NCBI GenBank assembly: GCA_029250925.1
Contig: JAQXEH010000030.1
Coordinates: forward strand, 1-64,000
Direction: 5' to 3'
Length of the DNA stretch: 64,000 nucleotides
Source of the DNA: Hellea sp.
GTDB taxonomy: Bacteria; Pseudomonadota; Alphaproteobacteria; Caulobacterales; Maricaulaceae
The notes under the pieces were generated by a model, which ran no database searches, was not told the DNA's origin, and saw only the letters and a program-made list of their open reading frames with translations. Every line of letters begins with the position of its first letter. Positions within the stretch are counted from its first letter, which is position 1. Shown here piece after piece: positions 43,245-56,770 of this stretch. Made by a program: the position numbers and the translations under genes.

Positions 43245-44771
43245 TTAATTTCTCAAAAAATAATCATAAGCAATATTTTTTGTTTCATCAGTCATTGGAT
43301 AACCTATGTTAGATAGACTAGTCTCCAAATTATCAAACTGATGCCCCTCAACTTTGAAGCCGCAAAGCACATGCCCAGTAGACGCTCCGTGGTTTCTGTA
43401 GTGAAAAAGAGAGATATCCCAGTCATTATTTAAACTCGTCAAAAAATTTATTAATGCGCCAGGTCTTTCTGGAAAATCAAAACGATAGATTTTTTCAACA
43501 AAGTTTTTAGCAGGCCTACCCCCTACCATGTGCCGTAAATGACGCTTAGACAATCTATCATTAGATAAATCAACAATGTTAATATCATTTTCTTCCATAG
43601 AATAAATTATACTACGGTGTTCATCAGAGGACTGCGTTTTAACTCCCACGAATATTCTTGCTATTCTATCAGATGAATACCTGTAATTAAATTCAGTTAT
43701 ATCGCGTTTGTCTAAGGTTTTAACAAATTCAAGAAATGCTCCCTTTTTCTCAGGAATCTCAGCTGCAAACAGCATCTCTTGACCAGACCCAAGTTCCGCC
43801 TGCTCAACTATGTTTCCAATTCTATCAAAGTTTACATTAGCACCAGATATTGTAGCTACAGATATTCCCTTTGGAGCAGTGCCTAAACTGACTTGCTTAA
43901 GAAAACCTGCTAATGCTAAGGCACCGGCCGGTTCGACTAAAGTTCGAGTCACCTCATAAATATCTTTCACTGCTGAACAGATCTCAGCATTCGTTACTGT
44001 TATACACTCGTCAACAACTCTCTGACATATCTCAAATGTATTAAATCCAACAGTTTTGACTGCAACCCCATCAGCAAAACCATCTACCTTATCAAGCTTC
44101 ACAGGACGCCCTGAATTTAAAGATGTTTGAAGTGTTGCTGCACCCTCAGGTTCAACAGCAATTATTTTTATATTAGGAGACACAGATTTTACCCATGTAC
44201 CAATCCCTGAAATTAAGCCACCGCCGCCAGTACACACATAAATCGCATCAGGAGTATGGTCCATTTGCTCTAAGATTTCTTTTCCAACGGTGCCCTGACC
44301 AGCTATAACGTCTAACTCATCAAATGGGTGAATAAATATGGCCCCCGTTTCTTGGGAGTATTTTAAGGCTGCCTTACAAGATTCATCATAATTTTCCCCT
44401 ATTAAACGTATCTCAGCACCTGCTGCACGCACAGCATTAATTTTTATTTTTGGAGTAGTTATTGGCATAAATATAACTGCTTTAGTTTGATAATATTTGG
44501 CTGCAGATGCCATTCCTTGGGCATGATTTCCTGCACTGGCAGCGCAGACACCTTTTAACTTTTCAGTATCGCTCAAATTTGATATTCTATTTGCTGCACC
44601 ACGAATTTTAAAGCTAAAAACATCCTGTAAATCTTCTCTTTTTAACCATATTTCGCTACCGGACTCATGACTCAGTTTCTCTGCCAATTGACAAGGTGTT
44701 CGTTTTGCTAGGTTATATATTTTAGCATTACCAATACGTTCTTTTAGGTCTTTAAGGTTAATTTTGGACAT
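43245..44771 (-). CDS. ilvA: biosynthetic threonine deaminase
   Basis: First committed enzyme of isoleucine synthesis, making 2-oxobutanoate from threonine. The PLP domain has K55 in VFSFKIRGAANR, and CAASAGNHAQGMA and STGGGG-type phosphate loop VCTGGGGLISGIG. Two ACT-like regulatory domains fill residues about 330-508, the biosynthetic form that isoleucine inhibits. Length 508 aa is typical. It is the last gene of the ilv-leu operon and overlaps leuB by 14 bases. Confidence 0.94.
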   Translation of the reverse strand: MSKINLKDLKERIGNAKIYNLAKRTPCQLAEKLSHESGSEIWLKREDLQDVFSFKIRGAANRISNLSDTEKLKGVCAASAGNHAQGMASAAKYYQTKAVIFMPITTPKIKINAVRAAGAEIRLIGENYDESCKAALKYSQETGAIFIHPFDELDVIAGQGTVGKEILEQMDHTPDAIYVCTGGGGLISGIGTWVKSVSPNIKIIAVEPEGAATLQTSLNSGRPVKLDKVDGFADGVAVKTVGFNTFEICQRVVDECITVTNAEICSAVKDIYEVTRTLVEPAGALALAGFLKQVSLGTAPKGISVATISGANVNFDRIGNIVEQAELGSGQEMLFAAEIPEKKGAFLEFVKTLDKRDITEFNYRYSSDRIARIFVGVKTQSSDEHRSIIYSMEENDINIVDLSNDRLSKRHLRHMVGGRPAKNFVEKIYRFDFPERPGALINFLTSLNNDWDISLFHYRNHGASTGHVLCGFKVEGHQFDNLETSLSNIGYPMTDETKNIAYDYFLRN

Positions 44772-45813
44772 ATTTTGCTATCCAAGAACCTACTTGCTGA
44801 GTAGACAGGGGACCGCCGAGGTCAGCAGTTGTTTGATTCTCAGTCAAAGCTAATTTCACTGCGCTCTCTATAGATGAGGCCTCAGTATCCATATCAAAAG
44901 AAAGGCGAAGCATCCATGCGGCCGACAAAATCATAGCCAGAGGGTTTGCCTTATTTTGACCGGAAATATCAGGGGCACTACCGTGAATAGGCTCATACAT
45001 CCCAACATTTCCGTCAGAAATAGAGGCTGAAGGAATAACACCCATGGAGCCTGTAAGCACAGACGCTTCATCCGTTAGTATATCACCGAACATATTTTCA
45101 GTTAAAATAACGTCAAAGTTTTGAGAATCAGTAAGCATATGCATAGTCATTGCATCAATAAGTAAATGCTCAACTTTAACATCATTATATCTTTCAGAAA
45201 CTTCCGTCACAGTCTCTCTCCACAATCGCGATGTTTCGAGAACATTAGATTTATCAACAGAAGTAACTTTCTTTTTACGCTGCCTTGCCAAATCAAAGGC
45301 TTTTATAGTTATGCGTTCAATTTCTTTCTTTGAATACCGGCATTCGTCAAAAGCACCTGAACTATCGCGTCCTTTTTTACCAAAATATATCCCGCCTGTC
45401 AGTTCACGCATGACTATGAAGTCAGTTCCTACTATTCTTTCATGTTTCAGAGGAGACCTACTTATTAATTCATCGTATGGTTTGCAAGGGCGGATATTGG
45501 CATATAAATTTAGTTTTTTTCTTAAAGGTAATAATGAACCTAATTCTGGGCGCTCAGCTCCTTTCAGGTGATCCCATTTAGGACCCCCAACAGCGCCGAG
45601 TAAAATAGCGCCTGTTCGCTTGCAAGACTCAAAGGTTTCTGCAGGTAGAGGTTTTCCTAACACATCAATAGCCGCACCCCCGATGAGATGTTGCTCTATT
45701 TCTAAATTATGACCAAATTTACTAGAGACCGCCTTCAAAACATTGATAGCGGCACCTCCTACTTCAGGCCCTATTCCATCTCCTGGAAGATATGTAAAAT
45801 TTATTTTTGCCAT
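44758..45813 (-). CDS. leuB: 3-isopropylmalate dehydrogenase
   Basis: Oxidises and decarboxylates 3-isopropylmalate in leucine synthesis (351 aa). The N-terminus LPGDGIGPEVGG is the family signature, with LLGAVGGPKWD, RELTGGIYFG and the catalytic VTSVDKSNVLETSRLWRE (Lys and Asp contacts). NMFGDILTDEA holds metal ligands, and the NAD loop EPIHGSAPDISGQNKANP is complete. It overlaps ilvA by 14 bases and is six bases from leuD. Confidence 0.95.
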   Translation of the reverse strand: MAKINFTYLPGDGIGPEVGGAAINVLKAVSSKFGHNLEIEQHLIGGAAIDVLGKPLPAETFESCKRTGAILLGAVGGPKWDHLKGAERPELGSLLPLRKKLNLYANIRPCKPYDELISRSPLKHERIVGTDFIVMRELTGGIYFGKKGRDSSGAFDECRYSKKEIERITIKAFDLARQRKKKVTSVDKSNVLETSRLWRETVTEVSERYNDVKVEHLLIDAMTMHMLTDSQNFDVILTENMFGDILTDEASVLTGSMGVIPSASISDGNVGMYEPIHGSAPDISGQNKANPLAMILSAAWMLRLSFDMDTEASSIESAVKLALTENQTTADLGGPLSTQQVGSWIAKYVQN

Positions 45814-45819
45814 ACAATA

Positions 45820-46395
45820 CTATCTGTTTTCATATTCAGAAATTTGGTTATTTTGTTCAAGTAAATAACCCATTTCATCAAGCCCTTCGAGAAGGCAATA
45901 ACGGGAAAAACTATCTATAACAAAAGAGTGAGACCCCATTCCACTTGGAAGCTCAAGTAAGCAAGACTCAAGATTTACAGTTACATACACTCCTGAATGC
46001 TCGATAAGCCATTGATGAACCTCTTTATTTATAGTGACAGGTAGTAAACCATTTTTAAGAGAATTACTTTTGAAAATATCGGCAATACTTGAACTAATTA
46101 CTACTCGAAATCCATAGTCAGTAAGGCCCCAAGGAGCATGTTCACGAGATGAACCGCAACCAAAATTATCTCCTGCAACAAGTATTTTGCATGCCTTGCC
46201 ACTCTCAGAGTTTAACTCATGATCAGTTAAAGTTCCAGAATTAGTATATCGCAAGTTAGAAAAAACATGTTCTCCCAATCCATTCCTCGTTGTCATTGAT
46301 AAAAATTTAGCTGGCATTATCTGATCCGTATCAATATTGGCTGATGGCAAGACTAATGTCCTTGAGGAAACTAATTTAAATGGTTCTATGGTCAT
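45820..46395 (-). CDS. leuD: 3-isopropylmalate dehydratase small subunit
   Basis: Swivel-domain subunit of isopropylmalate isomerase (191 aa). It carries NIDTDQIMPAKFL near the start and GDNFGCGSSREHAPWGL, the aconitase small-subunit signature with the substrate-binding serine and arginine. The C-terminal NGLLPVTI is also typical. Its ATG overlaps the leuC stop by four bases, so the two subunits are translated together. Confidence 0.95.
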   Translation of the reverse strand: MTIEPFKLVSSRTLVLPSANIDTDQIMPAKFLSMTTRNGLGEHVFSNLRYTNSGTLTDHELNSESGKACKILVAGDNFGCGSSREHAPWGLTDYGFRVVISSSIADIFKSNSLKNGLLPVTINKEVHQWLIEHSGVYVTVNLESCLLELPSGMGSHSFVIDSFSRYCLLEGLDEMGYLLEQNNQISEYENR

Positions 46396-47786
46396 TTATT
46401 TTTCTTTAAATTTCGAGGGTCCTCAATTACGCCTGCTATAGCTGTTGAAGCAGCTGTTTCGGGTGATGCCAATATAGTACGCACACCAGGGCCTTGGCGC
46501 CCCATAAAGTTACGGTTAGACGTTGAAACTATAAGTTCTCCGGGCAAACCTATGTCACCGTTCATACCCAAGCACATTGAGCATCCAGGTTCACGCCAGT
46601 CAGCACCTGCATCTTTAAATATTTTATCTAAACCTTCTTTCTCAGCAATGGCTTTTACTTGAGCGCTTCCGGGTACAACTAAAGCTTTCACATGCGGCGC
46701 TATTTTCTTTTTTTTAAAAATGCTTGCTGCTGCTCTGAGGTCGTCCATACGGGAGTTAGTGCAAGAACCTATAAAAACCTTATCAACCTTTATACCCAGC
46801 ATTTTATCACCCTCTGTAATTTGCATATAATTGAGTGAAGCTTGTTCTGCTAGGTTATTAGATTTCGGAACAATGGAGTCTATCGGGATACCCATCCCCG
46901 GGTGAGTGCCATATGTAACCATTGGCTTTATTGAGGCAGCCTTAATATTAACTTCTTTATCAAAAAAAGCACCTTCATCTGTAGATAGAGACAGCCATTC
47001 AGCACAACTATCCTCATAGTTCCTAGGGGTATATTTACGACCTCTAAGGAATTCAAAGGTCACTTCATCGGGTGCAATCATACCACAGCGCGCCCCAGCT
47101 TCAATCGACATATTACAAACGGTCATTCGACCGTCCATACTCATATCTTCGAAAACATTTCCACGGTACTCTATAGCATAACCAGTTCCGCCACCAATTC
47201 CTATCAATGAAATTATATGTAGAATTACATCCTTTGGAGTAACTCCTTGGTTGAGCTTTCCATTAACATTTACTGCCATAGTTTTAGGTTTTCTCATCAA
47301 AATACATTGATTTGCAAGAACGTGCCCTACCTGAGTAGTCCCAATGCCAAATGCAATTGCGCCAAAAGCTCCATGAGTTGAAGTATGGCTATCACCACAT
47401 ACAATAGTAGCACCAGGATGAGTGGCTCCAAGCTCAGGACCCATAACATGAACAATGCCGCGGTATTTACTATCCCAACCATGCGTCTCGATATCAAATT
47501 TTTTTGTATTACGCAGTAATGTTTCTACTTGTGTACGAGCTTCATCCGAAATGTAAGGCCGCGAACCATCTTTATTTAAAAGAGTTGGCGTAGAGTGGTC
47601 AATAGTCGCTAAGGTTAAATCAGGCCTTCTAACGCGCAGCCCCCTATCTTCCAATAAAGTAAATGCCTGAGGAGAGGTAACCTCATGAATAAGGTGCAAA
47701 TCTATAAAGATTGTAGCAGGGTGTGTTTCTGTCTCAGAAACAACAACGTGCTTTTCCCAAACTTTATCAAAAAGTGTTTTTCTCAT
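46392..47786 (-). CDS. leuC: 3-isopropylmalate dehydratase large subunit
   Basis: Iron-sulfur subunit of isopropylmalate isomerase (464 aa). The three cluster cysteines are in FIGSCTNSR and GCSMCLGMN; early motifs IDLHLIHEVTSPQAF and VCGDSHTSTHGAFGA are conserved. Length is normal. The ATG is two bases from the leuA stop, in the middle of the operon. Confidence 0.95.
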   Translation of the reverse strand: MRKTLFDKVWEKHVVVSETETHPATIFIDLHLIHEVTSPQAFTLLEDRGLRVRRPDLTLATIDHSTPTLLNKDGSRPYISDEARTQVETLLRNTKKFDIETHGWDSKYRGIVHVMGPELGATHPGATIVCGDSHTSTHGAFGAIAFGIGTTQVGHVLANQCILMRKPKTMAVNVNGKLNQGVTPKDVILHIISLIGIGGGTGYAIEYRGNVFEDMSMDGRMTVCNMSIEAGARCGMIAPDEVTFEFLRGRKYTPRNYEDSCAEWLSLSTDEGAFFDKEVNIKAASIKPMVTYGTHPGMGIPIDSIVPKSNNLAEQASLNYMQITEGDKMLGIKVDKVFIGSCTNSRMDDLRAAASIFKKKKIAPHVKALVVPGSAQVKAIAEKEGLDKIFKDAGADWREPGCSMCLGMNGDIGLPGELIVSTSNRNFMGRQGPGVRTILASPETAASTAIAGVIEDPRNLKKNK

Positions 47787-47787
47787 A

Positions 47788-49341
47788 TCAGTGCTGTGCC
47801 GCTATCGAAGCTTGACGCACGGCCCTCCGTTCGATCCTGTTGATAACATCAAGATAAGCCTTAGCTCCAGCAAGAACCGTGTCAGTACTTGCTCCTCGAC
47901 CTTGATAGTTTTCAAATTTAGTTGATACACTAACTGATGCTTCAGCCATTGCATCTTTACCCTCAGAGACAGATTGAACTGTAAAGCTTTCAAGATGTAA
48001 TGGATGCCCAGTTATTTCCGATATTGCTAGAAAAACAGCATTTACTGGTCCTGCAGCTTGGATAACTGTCTCCTCTAAGTTACCGCTTTCGTGTAACAAC
48101 TTAACCTTGGCACTTGGAGTGTTGTTATTATCAGAACCGGCTGAAACAGATAGGCTTTCCAACTTCCAAGGCCCTTGGGTTCCCACTGCCTCGCCGAGTA
48201 TTAAAGCTTCTAAATCGGCATCAAAAACTTCTTTTTTTGAATCTGCTAGTTCCTTAAATGCTACAAAAACAGACTTTAGTTGGTTATCTGACAGATCGAA
48301 ACCAATCTTTTCAGCGCGGCTTTTTAGAGCAGCTCTTCCTGAATGCTTGCCTAGAACTAAGTTATCAGTTGAAACACCTACATCCTCAGGTTTCATGATT
48401 TCATAAGTCTCACGGTTAGCTAAGACGCCATGTTGATGGATACCACTTTCATGAGCAAATGCATTTTTTCCAACTATTGCTTTATTACGGGGTACAGGGT
48501 TTCCAGTTAACGTAGCAAGTAACTTTGAAGCGCCGTATATACCCTCAGTTTTAATATCGGTAGAAAGCCCATAAAAATCCTTGCGGGTATTTAGAGCCAT
48601 AACAACCTCCTCGGTAGCACAATTTCCAGCTCTTTCACCAATACCGTTAAGAGCGCATTCTACCTGCCTCGCCCCACCTCTGATGGCAGCAAGGGAATTT
48701 GCAACGGCCAAGCCAAGGTCATCATGACAGTGTGCTGAAAATATAGTCTCATCACAACCTTCAATCTGACTTGTAAGAAATTCAAATAATTTCTGTATCT
48801 CCTCAGGAGTTGTATATCCTACAGTGTCAGGAATATTAATTGTTGTAGCTCCTGCCTTTATTGCAGCCTCAACAACTCTTTTAAGATAGTCTTTTTCAGT
48901 CCTAATGGCATCTTCACATGAAAATTCAACATCATCAGTAAAATTTCTTGCTAGCTTTATGCCTGCGGTTGCACGATTAAGGATTTCATCTTTGGACATT
49001 TTTAATTTATACTCTCGGTGCAAAGGTGAAGTGGCAATAAAGGTATGAATTCGACCTGAGTTAGCCAGCTTAATTGCTTTCCCGCTCGAGCGAATATCGT
49101 TTTCATTACACCGCGCCAAAGAACAAATTGTGCTATTTTTAATATTTTCAGCTATTGTCTTTATTGCCTCGAAATCACCGGGCGATGCAGCAGCAAACCC
49201 AGCCTCAATTACATTAACACCCAGACTCTCCAATGCATGAGCCATTGCAAGTTTCTGTCCCGAAGACATTGAAAAGCCTGGCGCTTGTTCCCCATCTCTT
49301 AGGGTCGTATCAAAAATTATAACTTTATTTTTACTCGTCAT
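47788..49341 (-). CDS. leuA: 2-isopropylmalate synthase
   Basis: Condenses acetyl-CoA with 2-oxoisovalerate, the first step of leucine synthesis (517 aa). The HMGL-like barrel has FDTTLRDGEQAPGFSM with the metal aspartate, FSAHCHDDLGLAVANSLAA with the His-x-His metal pair, and GNCATEEVVMAL. The C-terminal 120 residues form the leucine-binding LeuA dimer domain, so feedback inhibition is likely. It follows the small ilvM-like gene by 35 bases. Confidence 0.95.
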   Translation of the reverse strand: MTSKNKVIIFDTTLRDGEQAPGFSMSSGQKLAMAHALESLGVNVIEAGFAAASPGDFEAIKTIAENIKNSTICSLARCNENDIRSSGKAIKLANSGRIHTFIATSPLHREYKLKMSKDEILNRATAGIKLARNFTDDVEFSCEDAIRTEKDYLKRVVEAAIKAGATTINIPDTVGYTTPEEIQKLFEFLTSQIEGCDETIFSAHCHDDLGLAVANSLAAIRGGARQVECALNGIGERAGNCATEEVVMALNTRKDFYGLSTDIKTEGIYGASKLLATLTGNPVPRNKAIVGKNAFAHESGIHQHGVLANRETYEIMKPEDVGVSTDNLVLGKHSGRAALKSRAEKIGFDLSDNQLKSVFVAFKELADSKKEVFDADLEALILGEAVGTQGPWKLESLSVSAGSDNNNTPSAKVKLLHESGNLEETVIQAAGPVNAVFLAISEITGHPLHLESFTVQSVSEGKDAMAEASVSVSTKFENYQGRGASTDTVLAGAKAYLDVINRIERRAVRQASIAAQH

Positions 49342-49376: not shown

Positions 49377-49679
49377 CTAAGCTCTTTCAGCATGCTTTCG
49401 TCTTCCTACTTTCTCAGCGCTGACCACATTATAGAGCCGTTCTAATTGTTTACATAATGTATCAAGATTACTTGGACCGCCCGTATCTTCAATATGAACC
49501 AATAAATCAAAATCACCATCGACACGCTGAGTGCAATGCACATCTCTATAATCATATCCACGGCGTTCAATAGTTCCCAATGCCCTAATTAAGGTTCCGC
49601 TAACATCATGCAGTACAATTTTAAGTTTACCTTGAACACCAGAGGGTTCAAATGTCTTATTTCTCTGTAATTCTACCAT
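49377..49679 (-). CDS. ilvM: short acetolactate synthase regulatory subunit (ACT domain only)
   Basis: A 100-residue regulatory subunit for the acetolactate synthase encoded just upstream. It has one ACT domain (VSGTLIRALGTIERRGYDY, then GDFDLLVHI) and a short basic tail. The usual alphaproteobacterial IlvH has about 160-180 residues with a second domain, so this is closer in size to enterobacterial IlvM. The symbol is given by size and position and could equally be a truncated ilvH. It is nine bases from the ilvB stop. Confidence 0.83.
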   Translation of the reverse strand: MVELQRNKTFEPSGVQGKLKIVLHDVSGTLIRALGTIERRGYDYRDVHCTQRVDGDFDLLVHIEDTGGPSNLDTLCKQLERLYNVVSAEKVGRRKHAERA

Positions 49680-49687
49680 TACATTTC

Positions 49688-51415
49688 CTAACGTTCCATC
49701 ATATCCGCATTACTTCGACCTGGTGGTACAAGCGGCCAAACATTTTCATATGTATCTATTTTTACATGCATCAATATTGGCCCTGTTGCAGAAAGTAATC
49801 GTTCAATGCCATCATCAACTTCATCACCTTTTGTGATGGTGAAGGCTTCAATCTGGAAAGCTTTTGCAACCATCGCAAAATCAGGGTTATCATCTAAATT
49901 CACTTCTGAATAATTTTTTTCAAAGAAAACCTCTTGCCATTGACGAACCATACCAAGGGCTGAGTTATCCAATAATACAATCTTTAAGGGTATATCATAT
50001 CTAAATAGGGTGGCTAATTCTTGTATGTTCATCATTATCGAACCATCACCAGATACTGTGATTACAGTTCGGTTTGGAGCACCTAACTTTGCCCCAAGAC
50101 CGGCTGGCAAACCAAAACCCATCGTTCCCAGGCCGCCAGATGTAATATGATCTTTTGGATTATCAAAATAGCAATGCTGAGCTACCCACATCTGATGTTG
50201 TCCAACATCGCATGTAATTATCGCGCTACCCTCCACACGTCTTGAAAGATCATGAAGTAACTTAGGGGCATAAACACCTCCTGTTTTCATGTTTCCTATT
50301 GGGGACTTGTAATCCCATTCATATTCTTCCCGACGTGAAAAACAAAGACGTCTCCAATCCTCACATTTTGCTTCCCCCGGATTTAATGCTTCCAAATTCT
50401 TTTTCAACGAACCATCGAGAAATACATCAGTTTTTCTTAGTTTATTTATCTCTGCTATATCTATATCCATATGAATAACTTTAGCATTTGGAGCAAAGGT
50501 GTCTAACTTACCAGTTGCTCGGTCATCGAATCTAGCTCCGGCTACGATTAGCAAATCGCACTCTTGGACTGCATAATTTGCTGCTTTTAAGCCATGCATA
50601 CCTAACATACCTAAAAACTGAGGGTGGTCTGTGGGCAGTGAACCAAGCCCTTTTAAGGTCGAAACTACAGGAATTTGTGTTCGGTTAACAAGATCTCGCA
50701 ACTCCTTGACGCCGTCACCCTGAGCGATACCGCCACCTATATAAAAAAGTGGTTTCTTTGAGTCTTTAATTAGATCTTCAGCTTTTGATATGTAATCACT
50801 TTGGCCCATTTCTGGCTTTACTTTTGGATAAGGCCGCCATTTGTGTCGCTCTGTTGTGAGTGCATTAGCGACATCTTTTGGCAAGTCTATTAAGACCGGC
50901 CCTGGTCTGCCTTCAGCTGCTATAAAATAAGCTTCTGCTACCATACCAGGAATATCCGCTGGATCACGGGCAATATAACTATGCTTAACAATTGGTAACG
51001 TAATACCGAAGATATCAACTTCTTGAAAAGCATCTGTGCCCATCAGATCAGAAGTAACTTGTCCTGTTACAAACACAACAGGAACAGAGTCTAAATATGC
51101 ATCAGCAATTGCTGTTACCAAATTAGTGGCACCTGGGCCAGATGTAGCAAATGCTGTTCCCGTTTTTCCAGTAGCTCTGGCGTATCCGATTGCAGCCATT
51201 CCACAACCTTGCTCGTGACGACACAATATGTGACGCAAAGAGCCTACCTTAGGCAAAACATCATAAACTGGCATAATAGCACCCCCAGGGTAACCAAAAA
51301 TAGTATCTACACCTTGTGCAGCTATTGACTCTAACAATAAAAGAGCACCCGACTTTGGCTCGCGGTTAGCCAGTATTTTCGTTTGCTGATGTTCAAATTG
51401 AGTTGCTGTGGTCAT
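49688..51415 (-). CDS. ilvB: acetolactate synthase catalytic subunit
   Basis: Thiamine-diphosphate enzyme that makes acetolactate and acetohydroxybutyrate in the valine, leucine and isoleucine pathways (575 aa). It shows IFGYPGGAIMPVYD, CRHEQGCGMAAIGYARATG with the catalytic glutamate, GPGATNLVTAIADAY, FAD-contacting GARFDDRATGKL and the ThDP motif VSGDGSIMMN followed by DNSALGMVRQWQ. Order with the short ACT subunit resembles ilvGM of enterobacteria. Confidence 0.95.
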   Translation of the reverse strand: MTTATQFEHQQTKILANREPKSGALLLLESIAAQGVDTIFGYPGGAIMPVYDVLPKVGSLRHILCRHEQGCGMAAIGYARATGKTGTAFATSGPGATNLVTAIADAYLDSVPVVFVTGQVTSDLMGTDAFQEVDIFGITLPIVKHSYIARDPADIPGMVAEAYFIAAEGRPGPVLIDLPKDVANALTTERHKWRPYPKVKPEMGQSDYISKAEDLIKDSKKPLFYIGGGIAQGDGVKELRDLVNRTQIPVVSTLKGLGSLPTDHPQFLGMLGMHGLKAANYAVQECDLLIVAGARFDDRATGKLDTFAPNAKVIHMDIDIAEINKLRKTDVFLDGSLKKNLEALNPGEAKCEDWRRLCFSRREEYEWDYKSPIGNMKTGGVYAPKLLHDLSRRVEGSAIITCDVGQHQMWVAQHCYFDNPKDHITSGGLGTMGFGLPAGLGAKLGAPNRTVITVSGDGSIMMNIQELATLFRYDIPLKIVLLDNSALGMVRQWQEVFFEKNYSEVNLDDNPDFAMVAKAFQIEAFTITKGDEVDDGIERLLSATGPILMHVKIDTYENVWPLVPPGRSNADMMER

Positions 51416-51446: not shown

Positions 51447-54157
<2,711 letters not shown>

Positions 54158-54176
54158 ACATAATCTCCCTAAGCAT

Positions 54177-54203
54177 AAAAAAACCCGCTCGGTTAGGAGC
54201 GGG
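54177..54203 (-). terminator. attenuator terminator in the ilvD leader
   Basis: Read on the minus strand, CCCGCTC (54203-54197) pairs perfectly with GAGCGGG (54190-54184) around the loop CTAACC, followed by seven T (54183-54177). This is a strong intrinsic terminator. It ends only 20 bases before the ilvD start, so unregulated it would block the operon. The segment AGCGGG (54238-54233), inside the last codons of the leader peptide, is complementary to CCCGCT of the terminator's first arm and can act as the antiterminator. Both pairings are seen directly; the switching is inferred from classical amino-acid attenuators. Confidence 0.9.
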
Positions 54204-54226
54204 TGAATTAGGCTTATAACTCTTAC

Positions 54227-54355
54227 CTAAATCCCGCTTTTTTTAATGCTAATGAGCAGTACTTCTAAACTAAGGACGCCACCAATAAAAAGTTCTAATA
54301 GACGTCGTGCCCCAACACCCTTGTCTTTTTTACAATATTCCTGAGTTATAATCAT
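54227..54355 (-). CDS. ilv-leu operon leader peptide (42 aa)
   Basis: Short reading frame from ATG at 54355 to TAG at 54229-54227. Residues 19-37 (LLELFIGGVLSLEVLLISI) contain 12 Leu, Ile or Val out of 19, the expected sensor for branched-chain aminoacyl-tRNAs. The two codons AGC GGG at positions 40-41 form the antiterminator arm. A ribosome stalled in the Leu/Ile/Val run leaves that arm free to pair with the terminator, whereas one that reaches the stop codon covers it. No strong ribosome binding site is visible before the ATG. The peptide is an attenuation device and is unlikely to have another function. Confidence 0.85.
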   Translation of the reverse strand: MIITQEYCKKDKGVGARRLLELFIGGVLSLEVLLISIKKSGI

Positions 54356-54389
54356 ACTATTATACCATTACCAAATTATGAGTATAAAT

Positions 54390-54418
54390 ATTCTAAAGAA
54401 ACACCTTAAGCAACACAA
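54390..54418 (-). promoter_or_regulatory. candidate promoter of the ilv-leu operon
   Basis: On the minus strand TTGTGT (54418-54413) and TAGAAT (54395-54390) lie 17 bases apart. Transcription would start near 54383, leaving about 28 bases before the leader-peptide ATG. A consensus TATAAT at 54364-54359 is nearer but would start transcription inside the ATG. The remaining leader upstream (54419-54478) holds the end of metB's untranslated region and a 12-base palindrome, CATAAATTTATG (54456-54467). I see nothing else. Confidence 0.35.
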
Positions 54419-54478
54419 ATATTTACCCTAAAATAGTTTATTTTTTGACATAAAACATAAATTTATGCCTCATATAGG

Positions 54479-55636
54479 CTAAATTAGGGCAAATGATGCC
54501 GATAAGTCCTGAATTATATCTTCAGAACTTTCAAGGCCGATAGAAATTCTAAGTAAATTTTCTTTTATTCCGGCATCACGTCTTAATGTTTCAGACATCC
54601 CCCCGTGGGTCATCGTTGGCGGATAAGAAATTAAACTCTCAACACCCCCAAGGCTTGGAGCCAATTGAAATATCTTCAGATTTTCTATAACACTCTTAGC
54701 TGAGTTAAACCCTCCAATAACTTCAAACGAAATCATTGCGCCTGGCCCGCTTTGCTGTTTTTTACATAAATTATAACCGGGGTCTGAGGGTAAACCAGGG
54801 TAGTAGACTTTAGAAATCTTAGGGTGATTGTAAAGAAATTGCGCCACCTTCATTGCGCTTGACTCTTGGGCATCCATTCTTGCGTGTAATGTGCGCATTC
54901 CGCGTAAGGTCATGAAGCTATCAAAGGGAGATCCCGTAATACCTAAGCAGTTTGCCCACCATGCTAATTGATTACCATGATCTTCTTTTTTTGATATAAT
55001 GGCACCGCCAACAACATCACTATGTCCATTTAAGTACTTGGTAGTGGAATGAATAGAAAAATCTGCGCCCAAGTCTAGTGGCCTTTGCCGAACAGGAGAT
55101 AAAAATGTATTATCGACAGCTACCAGCGCACCAACAGATTTAGCTAACTTACTAATTTCTTGAATATCAACTAGTCTCATCAATGGGTTTGATGGTGACT
55201 CTAACATAACAAGAGCGGGTTTCTCTTTAAAAGCTTCACTAACTTCCTTTACATCTAAAAAGTCTATGAATTTAACTTTTAATCGCCCTTGCTCTGCTCG
55301 GTTACTTAAAAGCCGGTGCGTTCCTGCATAACAATCATTAGGTGCGAAGATCAATGCGTCAGCATTAAATAGGTTTGTCACCAAGTCAATTGCAGACATG
55401 CCGGAAGATGTGACAACGCACGAGGATCCATTTTCTAATAATGTTAGTGTTTCAGCTAGTTCATCTCGGTTGGGATTTGCTGTTCGGCCATAATCGTATT
55501 TGCCTTTCTGAGTTATTGTATCAAAGCAATATGTGGAACTAAGATATATAGGCGGACTCACTGATTTGTAAGCGGGGTCATCGCCCATTCCTGCCTGTAC
55601 CAATGATGTACGCTTTGAAGTCATATCTTCGCCCAT
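54479..55636 (-). CDS. metB: cystathionine gamma-synthase (MetB-type PLP enzyme)
   Basis: PLP enzyme of transsulfuration joining an activated homoserine with cysteine or sulfide (385 aa). It parallels E. coli MetB closely: SPPIYLSSTYCFD, YDYGRTANPNRDEL, TSSGMSAIDLVT, the PLP lysine in HSTTKYLNGHSDVVGG and SLGGVESLISYP. The first ATG is used; an ATG four codons later is also possible. It follows metX by 18 bases, so both fall under the SAM riboswitch. Cystathionine synthase versus homoserine sulfhydrylase activity cannot be settled by eye. Confidence 0.88.
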   Translation of the reverse strand: MGEDMTSKRTSLVQAGMGDDPAYKSVSPPIYLSSTYCFDTITQKGKYDYGRTANPNRDELAETLTLLENGSSCVVTSSGMSAIDLVTNLFNADALIFAPNDCYAGTHRLLSNRAEQGRLKVKFIDFLDVKEVSEAFKEKPALVMLESPSNPLMRLVDIQEISKLAKSVGALVAVDNTFLSPVRQRPLDLGADFSIHSTTKYLNGHSDVVGGAIISKKEDHGNQLAWWANCLGITGSPFDSFMTLRGMRTLHARMDAQESSAMKVAQFLYNHPKISKVYYPGLPSDPGYNLCKKQQSGPGAMISFEVIGGFNSAKSVIENLKIFQLAPSLGGVESLISYPPTMTHGGMSETLRRDAGIKENLLRISIGLESSEDIIQDLSASFALI

Positions 55637-56643: not shown

Positions 56644-56669
56644 AAAGATTTCAAGCCCTTAGCCAGTAA

Positions 56670-56764
56670 CATCTTCCGGAATTATCCGCAGGAATTGGCA
56701 CCGTCTGTATAAACAAGGTTGCCCCGACTTTCTAAGGGCCTGTCCCTCGGTCGGTCTTGATGAA
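56670..56764 (-). ncRNA. S-box type (SAM-I-like) riboswitch upstream of metX
   Basis: The minus-strand leader carries the S-box core in order: ATCAAGA, then GAGGGACAGGCCC, GAAA, GGCAACC, and GGTGCCAATTCCTGC, ending in GGAAGATG. Helices can be drawn: CATC with GATG (P1), CCGAC (56754-56750) with GTCGG (56728-56724) (P2), ACC with GGT (P3), and CGGA with TCCG (P4). The order and motifs match the SAM-I/IV superfamily, which represses methionine genes when S-adenosylmethionine is abundant. It precedes metX-metB, a fitting target. Subtype cannot be fixed by eye. Confidence 0.85.
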
Positions 56765-56770
56765 TATACC

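Follow-up and report, generated by a model that had tools for sequence, protein, structure and literature searches.

A Putative Three-Arm Ribosome-Mediated Attenuator before ilvD of a Nine-Gene Branched-Chain Amino Acid Operon in Hellea

The Operon and Its Host

The window, a 64,000-nucleotide stretch of contig JAQXEH010000030.1, derives from an alphaproteobacterium nearest to Hellea MAGs, and its ilvD is 98% identical to that of Hellea sp. SI034 (L061). NCBI taxonomy places Hellea in the Maricaulales, Robiginitomaculaceae. Nine genes of the branched-chain amino acid (BCAA) pathway, ilvD-ilvC-ilvB/G-ilvN/M-leuA-leuC-leuD-leuB-ilvA, run along the minus strand from 54157 to 43245, separated by gaps of at most 35 bases:

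52487-54157, minus strand: ilvD, dihydroxy-acid dehydratase, the first controlled gene (NF002068)
51447-52475, minus strand: ilvC, ketol-acid reductoisomerase (NF004017)
49688-51415, minus strand: ilvB/ilvG, acetolactate synthase large subunit, type II (NF006524, over the cut-off)
49377-49679, minus strand: ilvN/ilvM-like small subunit of 100 aa (weak NF008864 match, below the cut-off; position conserved)
47788-49341, minus strand: leuA (NF002086, TIGR00973)
46392-47786, minus strand: leuC (TIGR00170)
45820-46395, minus strand: leuD (TIGR00171)
44758-45813, minus strand: leuB (TIGR00169)
43245-44771, minus strand: ilvA, threonine ammonia-lyase (TIGR01124)
54165-54170, minus strand: Shine-Dalgarno-like AGGGAG of ilvD (from the sequence)

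The ilvD start codon is a GTG at 54157. The gene order given in the original prediction is correct and is also conserved in relatives, and its label of ilvM for the small subunit is fair, given that NF006524, the equivalog for acetolactate synthase II, is matched by the large subunit. No intergenic minus-strand terminator was found between the nine genes; the sites outside the leader are all intragenic, and their number is at the level of shuffled sequence.

The Leader ORF

The gap upstream of ilvD (54158-54478) houses a leader ORF, a terminator, and an antiterminator, all on the minus strand. Re-reading of this strand bears out the predicted gap of 321 bases, the ORF of 42 codons, and the 12 Leu/Ile/Val among residues 19-37:

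54227-54355, minus strand: leader peptide ORF, 42 codons (sequence; homologues before ilvD in relatives)
54245-54301, minus strand: regulatory codons 19-37, 12 Leu/Ile/Val of 19 (ORF translation; position profile of leaders)
54251-54262, minus strand: most conserved control codons, Val-Leu-Leu-Ile, codons 32-35 or 11 to 8 before the stop (position profile)

The ORF (54355-54227) translates to MIITQEYCKKDKGVGARRLLELFIGGVLSLEVLLISIKKSGI and ends in a stop codon; no clear Shine-Dalgarno sequence precedes its start codon. When the gap was dinucleotide-shuffled 3000 times, 36 of the shuffles contained an ORF with at least 12 Leu/Ile/Val in 19 codons, as did 17 of 1192 same-size pieces of the window. 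The Leu/Ile/Val content alone, an event of about 1 in 80, is thus weak evidence, and it is the comparison with relatives that settles the matter.

The Terminator and Antiterminator

The terminator, ACCCGCTC-CTAACC-GAGCGGGT, occupies 54204-54183 on the minus strand, with a T-run extending to 54177, and lies 19 bases ahead of the ilvD GTG. No other terminator-like site was found in 53900-54900. The elements from leader stop codon to T-run are as follows:

54233-54238, minus strand: arm 2, antiterminator 5′ arm AGCGGG, codons 40-41 (pairs with 54203-54198; cognate better than swapped pairing in 78 leaders)
54225-54230, minus strand: inner antiterminator stem, 5′ side TTAGGT, including the stop TAG at 54229-54227 (folds better than shuffles)
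54208-54213, minus strand: inner antiterminator stem, 3′ side GCCTAA (folding against shuffles)
54197-54204, minus strand: arm 3, shared arm ACCCGCTC, partner of arm 2 or arm 4 (folding, alignment)
54183-54190, minus strand: arm 4, terminator 3′ arm GAGCGGGT (folding, alignment)
54177-54183, minus strand: terminator T-run (sequence)

Both the terminator before the ilvD start and the pairing of AGCGGG with the first terminator arm had been predicted and are confirmed, AGCGGG (54238-54233) being complementary to CCCGCT (54203-54198). The antiterminator is longer than originally described, as it includes the inner stem TTAGGT/GCCTAA that spans the leader stop codon. With arm 4 left out, the antiterminator formed by arms 2 and 3 has a folding energy of −15.4 kcal/mol, compared with −14.9 kcal/mol for the terminator hairpin alone. 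The two structures share arm 3 and are mutually exclusive. Arm 2 begins three codons before the stop, and the control codons end eight before it.

In contrast to trp-type attenuators with four segments, no segment 1 pairing with the antiterminator arm was detected. A search for such a segment or a pause hairpin gave no signal (n = 33; arm unpaired 0.25 versus 0.24 in shuffles, mean z 0.14), a result that is not proof of absence. The description of the attenuator as complete holds for a three-arm device, while a separate segment 1 sequestering the antiterminator arm is undetectable.

The Predicted Promoter Region

A conserved block 30-63 bases upstream of the leader start codon resembles a promoter:

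54385-54418, minus strand: conserved promoter region, TTGTGT (54418-54413)-17-TAGAAT (54395-54390) or the overlapping TTGCTT (54413-54408)-17-TATTTA (54390-54385) (consensus)

In most relatives, an AT-rich block with CTTG behind it stands some 50-58 bases upstream of the leader start. From this block, the transcript is predicted to start at about 54384-54378, upstream of the leader ORF. The best match to the promoter consensus is an extended −10 element, TATAAT, at 54364-54359; it was rejected because it abuts the ATG, such that the transcript would start at or after the leader start codon, and because the site is not conserved, with neither of the two nearest relatives (L061 and L062) having it.

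A block that is near-palindromic in places, GGYAAATTTTTnnnCTTG, lies at about 54435-54411 in the window and at the same place in most relatives (L061-L098). It covers the −35 region of the predicted leader promoter and extends just upstream of it; it may serve as an UP element or as the site of a regulator.

Conservation of the Leader in Relatives

ilvD was located in 95 of the 137 genomes of the family, as well as in 41 loci of named genome records, three of which are from distant phyla and one of which is a fragment without the gene start. The ilvD start is present in 37 named loci, two of which (L065 and L088) are too short upstream. A script search found the leader ORF correctly placed in 34 of the remaining 35, in addition to the window. 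The extract of the last locus (L080) is itself too short, but the leader, with a GTG start, is seen in L169, which covers more of that genome. A homologous leader is present in every close relative with enough upstream DNA. Typical examples are MNPYQQDNEPKVKIASRAVPSITSVLVLLLVSVVVLLINGALSGI (Hellea balneolensis, L064) and MEKKSEIKVLTVADQKAANADKRVLGSLILVGLLSVLLIVTRGMSGF (L076), each followed by its stop codon.

The control codons stand at a fixed distance from the end of the ORF. Counted back from the stop, the fraction of Leu/Ile/Val is 0.72 at −8, 0.97 at −9, 1.00 at −10, 0.84 at −11, and 0.88 at −12, but only 0.06 at −6 and at −2. The window leader retains Val-Leu-Leu-Ile at −11 to −8. Ser-Gly is frequent at −3 and −2 because its codons, AGC GGG, constitute the antiterminator arm. 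Changes at the first, second, and third codon positions of the relatives' leaders number 169/69/220, 79/16/127, and 27/12/59. Second positions change least, as expected of a hydrophobic run, from which the ORF is evidently translated in these relatives.

Constraint is looser in the clade of the window, where the corresponding changes are 31/28/43. Across the three members of the clade, the residue is unchanged at seven of the window's 12 Leu/Ile/Val positions in codons 19-37 (five Leu, one Ile, and one Val) but at only one of the seven other positions. The control codons of the clade are partly eroded and leucine-heavy. The proposal that the leader senses leucine, isoleucine, and valine together is plausible, but the response would be leucine-weighted, as the invariant positions of the clade are mostly Leu, Val and Ile each holding one.

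The leaders of L063, L064, L066, L067, L073, and L098 begin with MNP/MHP…PKVKVA, a motif lost in the clade of the window. The variation within this motif is synonymous, which suggests selection on the N-terminal PKVKVA-type peptide itself.

Conservation extends to the paired structures. An alignment of 35 leaders has 93% pairing in the terminator stem and five double-change cells, and none of 500 shuffles attains its covariation score. The inner antiterminator stem folds better than shuffles in most of 36 sequences (mean z −1.52, Stouffer −9.1, uncorrected for phylogeny). The outer antiterminator stem is 88% paired and near-invariant, and its covariation within the Hellea group is nil; on the MAFFT alignment, none is seen because the arms hardly vary and certain rows are misaligned. 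Cognate and swapped pairings were therefore compared instead. In 78 leaders, arm 2 pairs with its own terminator arm at a mean of −14.4 kcal/mol, as opposed to −12.6 kcal/mol after swapping, and none of 5000 swaps was as good. These leaders come from several families of the order and were chosen for a Leu/Ile/Val-rich ORF, such that they show pairing given a leader and not the frequency of leaders. Swaps confined to groups give a clear result in the wider family (0/4000 as good) and the order set (1/4000) and a weak one in the Hellea group (227/4000). A terminator follows each of the 78 leaders. The original prediction had proposed that related genomes be compared for conserved Leu/Ile/Val runs and compensatory stem changes, with loss of both peptide and stems counting against it; the comparison came out in its favor.

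The gene order behind the leader varies with distance. The nine-gene order is found in the close genera examined with long enough contigs; more distant genera keep ilvD-C-B and leuACDB with no ilvA recognized nearby, and the leader still precedes ilvD. Such a leader was found before ilvD in 16 of the 16 members sampled from family f5 and in three more, in two of three from f4, and in one of one from f3. In genera g14 and g15, ilvD lies elsewhere and is leader-free, and the leader sits instead before an ilvC-ilvB pair, the gene directly behind it being called ilvC from its size and position. A leader before the ilvC-ilvB pair with a solitary, leaderless ilvD is seen in L152, L153, and L154 (G036, G022, and G023, respectively). 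In genus g5 (G117), ilvD is leader-free and no such leader was found before ilvB. Sister-family genomes with the other type of ilvB have at most short, different leaders (e.g., one ending in VVVLISP) with different arms. A leader inside the operon directly before ilvB was not found in 12 related genomes.

Two loci deviate in the detail of the leader end. In L085 and L083, the leader stop codon immediately precedes the AGCGGG arm and lies outside the antiterminator. L085 also has several similar repeated units between the terminator and ilvD. A regular-expression search for a repeated Shine-Dalgarno-bearing hairpin upstream of ilvD returned isolated matches only.

Proposed Mechanism and Alternatives

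The leader has the sequence features of the attenuator class: an ORF with codons for the end products, an intrinsic terminator between this ORF and the first gene, and an antiterminator that is exclusive with the terminator and has a 5′ arm that a ribosome at the stop codon would cover and one stalled at the control codons would leave free. The order of the parts, their mutually exclusive pairings, and their conservation across relatives support the original reading of ribosome-mediated attenuation. The parts, their conservation, and their covariation are direct observations, and the region almost certainly attenuates transcription of the nine-gene ilvDCGM-leuACDB-ilvA operon by a ribosome-mediated mechanism.

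In the proposed course of events, the transcript would begin about 25 bases ahead of the leader ORF, with a ribosome trailing the polymerase. With ample charged leucyl-, valyl-, and isoleucyl-tRNAs, the ribosome would reach the stop codon and cover arm 2 (AGCGGG) and the inner stem, leaving arm 3 to pair with arm 4, and the transcript would end near 54177. When these tRNAs are short, the ribosome would stall within codons 19-35, and arm 2 would pair with arm 3 once the latter is made; the terminator would then not form, and the operon would be transcribed. The kinetics, the stall sites, and the extension of control to all nine genes are presumed in this scheme, as is the promoter. As a dedicated pause hairpin was not found, read-through and not super-attenuation would be expected once the leader is no longer translated; untranslated leader RNA may read through by default.

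Three other explanations were weighed. The terminator could be an ordinary one that ends the met transcript upstream, or one that acts constitutively in the leader, accompanied by a short ORF that arose by chance. The Leu/Ile/Val density does arise in about 1% of shuffles, terminator-like sites are about as frequent by chance in the region, and only about 270 bases separate the end of the met gene from the terminator. However, the ORF, the positions of its Leu/Ile/Val codons, and the complementary arm are kept not just among close relatives but also in other families of the order, and a conserved promoter-like block separates the met gene from the leader, all of which makes this explanation highly improbable. 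An equally slight probability is assigned to a metabolite riboswitch or T-box that governs the terminator, with the peptide being incidental. Although a terminator with an alternative pairing is also typical of riboswitch leaders, the leader reaches the gathering score of no Rfam family, be it in the window or in the 12 relatives compared. A relaxed threshold returns sub-threshold matches only, the best of which, Trp_leader, is itself an attenuator; moreover, the conserved signal consists of in-frame Leu/Ile/Val codons at a fixed distance from the arm and not of an aptamer.

Somewhat less remote, but still unlikely, is that the ORF encodes a functional small hydrophobic peptide to which attenuation is secondary or additional. 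The basic N-terminus (PKVKVA) of many leaders, its synonymous changes, and the hydrophobic run are in line with such a role. In contrast, the clade of the window has no N-terminal motif and its hydrophobic stretch is broken by Glu and Gly, and the end of the ORF is fixed relative to the antiterminator arm in all leaders.

Relation to Known Attenuators

BCAA attenuation is a classical mechanism. The enterobacterial ilvGMEDA and leuABCD attenuators combine runs of BCAA codons with mutually exclusive terminators and antiterminators, as does the Hellea leader. In contrast to the latter, they belong to separate operons with separate leaders in a four-arm layout, and there is no sequence resemblance between them and the Hellea leader.

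Among alphaproteobacteria, an attenuator of Caulobacter crescentus ilvBN (ilvIH) with the leader ilvL is known and, as summarized in PMC4117421 (citing Tarleton 1994), carries tandem Ile/Val codons in its leader ORF, behind which a terminator lies. As described there, it precedes ilvBN, whereas the Hellea device precedes ilvD. In Staphylococcus aureus, a single leader ahead of ilvD serves the same nine genes (ilvDBNC-leuABCD-ilvA); it comprises a Leu/Ile-rich ORF and a terminator (PMC5794164). This Firmicute system differs in its 26-aa peptide, in another proposed antiterminator, and in CodY as a second layer, and has no sequence relation to the Hellea leader. A stop mutation within its leader relieves repression (PMC5794164), which parallels the read-through predicted for the Hellea device upon loss of leader translation. 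Rli60 of Listeria monocytogenes, tested with reporters and mutants, is likewise a ribosome-mediated attenuator ahead of ilvD in an ilv-leu operon (PMC5864092). However, it has four segments and responds to loss of the start codon with super-attenuation (PMC5864092), while the Hellea device has no detectable segment 1 and is predicted to do the opposite. A single attenuator for a whole ilvD-leu-ilvA operon is therefore not new in principle (PMC5794164, PMC5864092).

No description of the Hellea-type leader was found in the open-access literature, to which the search was confined. The present comparison adds detail on an attenuator that has no Rfam entry and is spread over several families of one alphaproteobacterial order, and it suggests a single translation-sensing switch over the whole BCAA pathway in close Hellea relatives. 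It also lends itself to a clean comparison of three-arm and trp-type attenuators, which may respond in opposite ways to the loss of leader translation. Tentatively, and with a probability somewhat short of even, these leaders may form a distinct, order-wide class of three-arm BCAA attenuators placed before ilvD or ilvC, with the stop codon in or beside the antiterminator, in which untranslated RNA reads through by default and translation shuts the operon off; the small-genome Hellea clade would be drifting from Leu/Val/Ile toward mainly Leu sensing.

A Neighboring SAM-I Riboswitch

A SAM-I (S-box) riboswitch (56666-56766, minus strand; 69.6 bits versus a gathering score of 44.4) precedes metX and a 385-aa PLP-type met gene that lie just upstream of the attenuator. 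To our knowledge, SAM-I is uncommon in Alphaproteobacteria. Among 14 control genomes, it was found only in Bacillus, Thermus, and Deinobacterium. It is present in 23 of the 61 genomes searched, this one included, often about 2-3.5 kb from ilvD.
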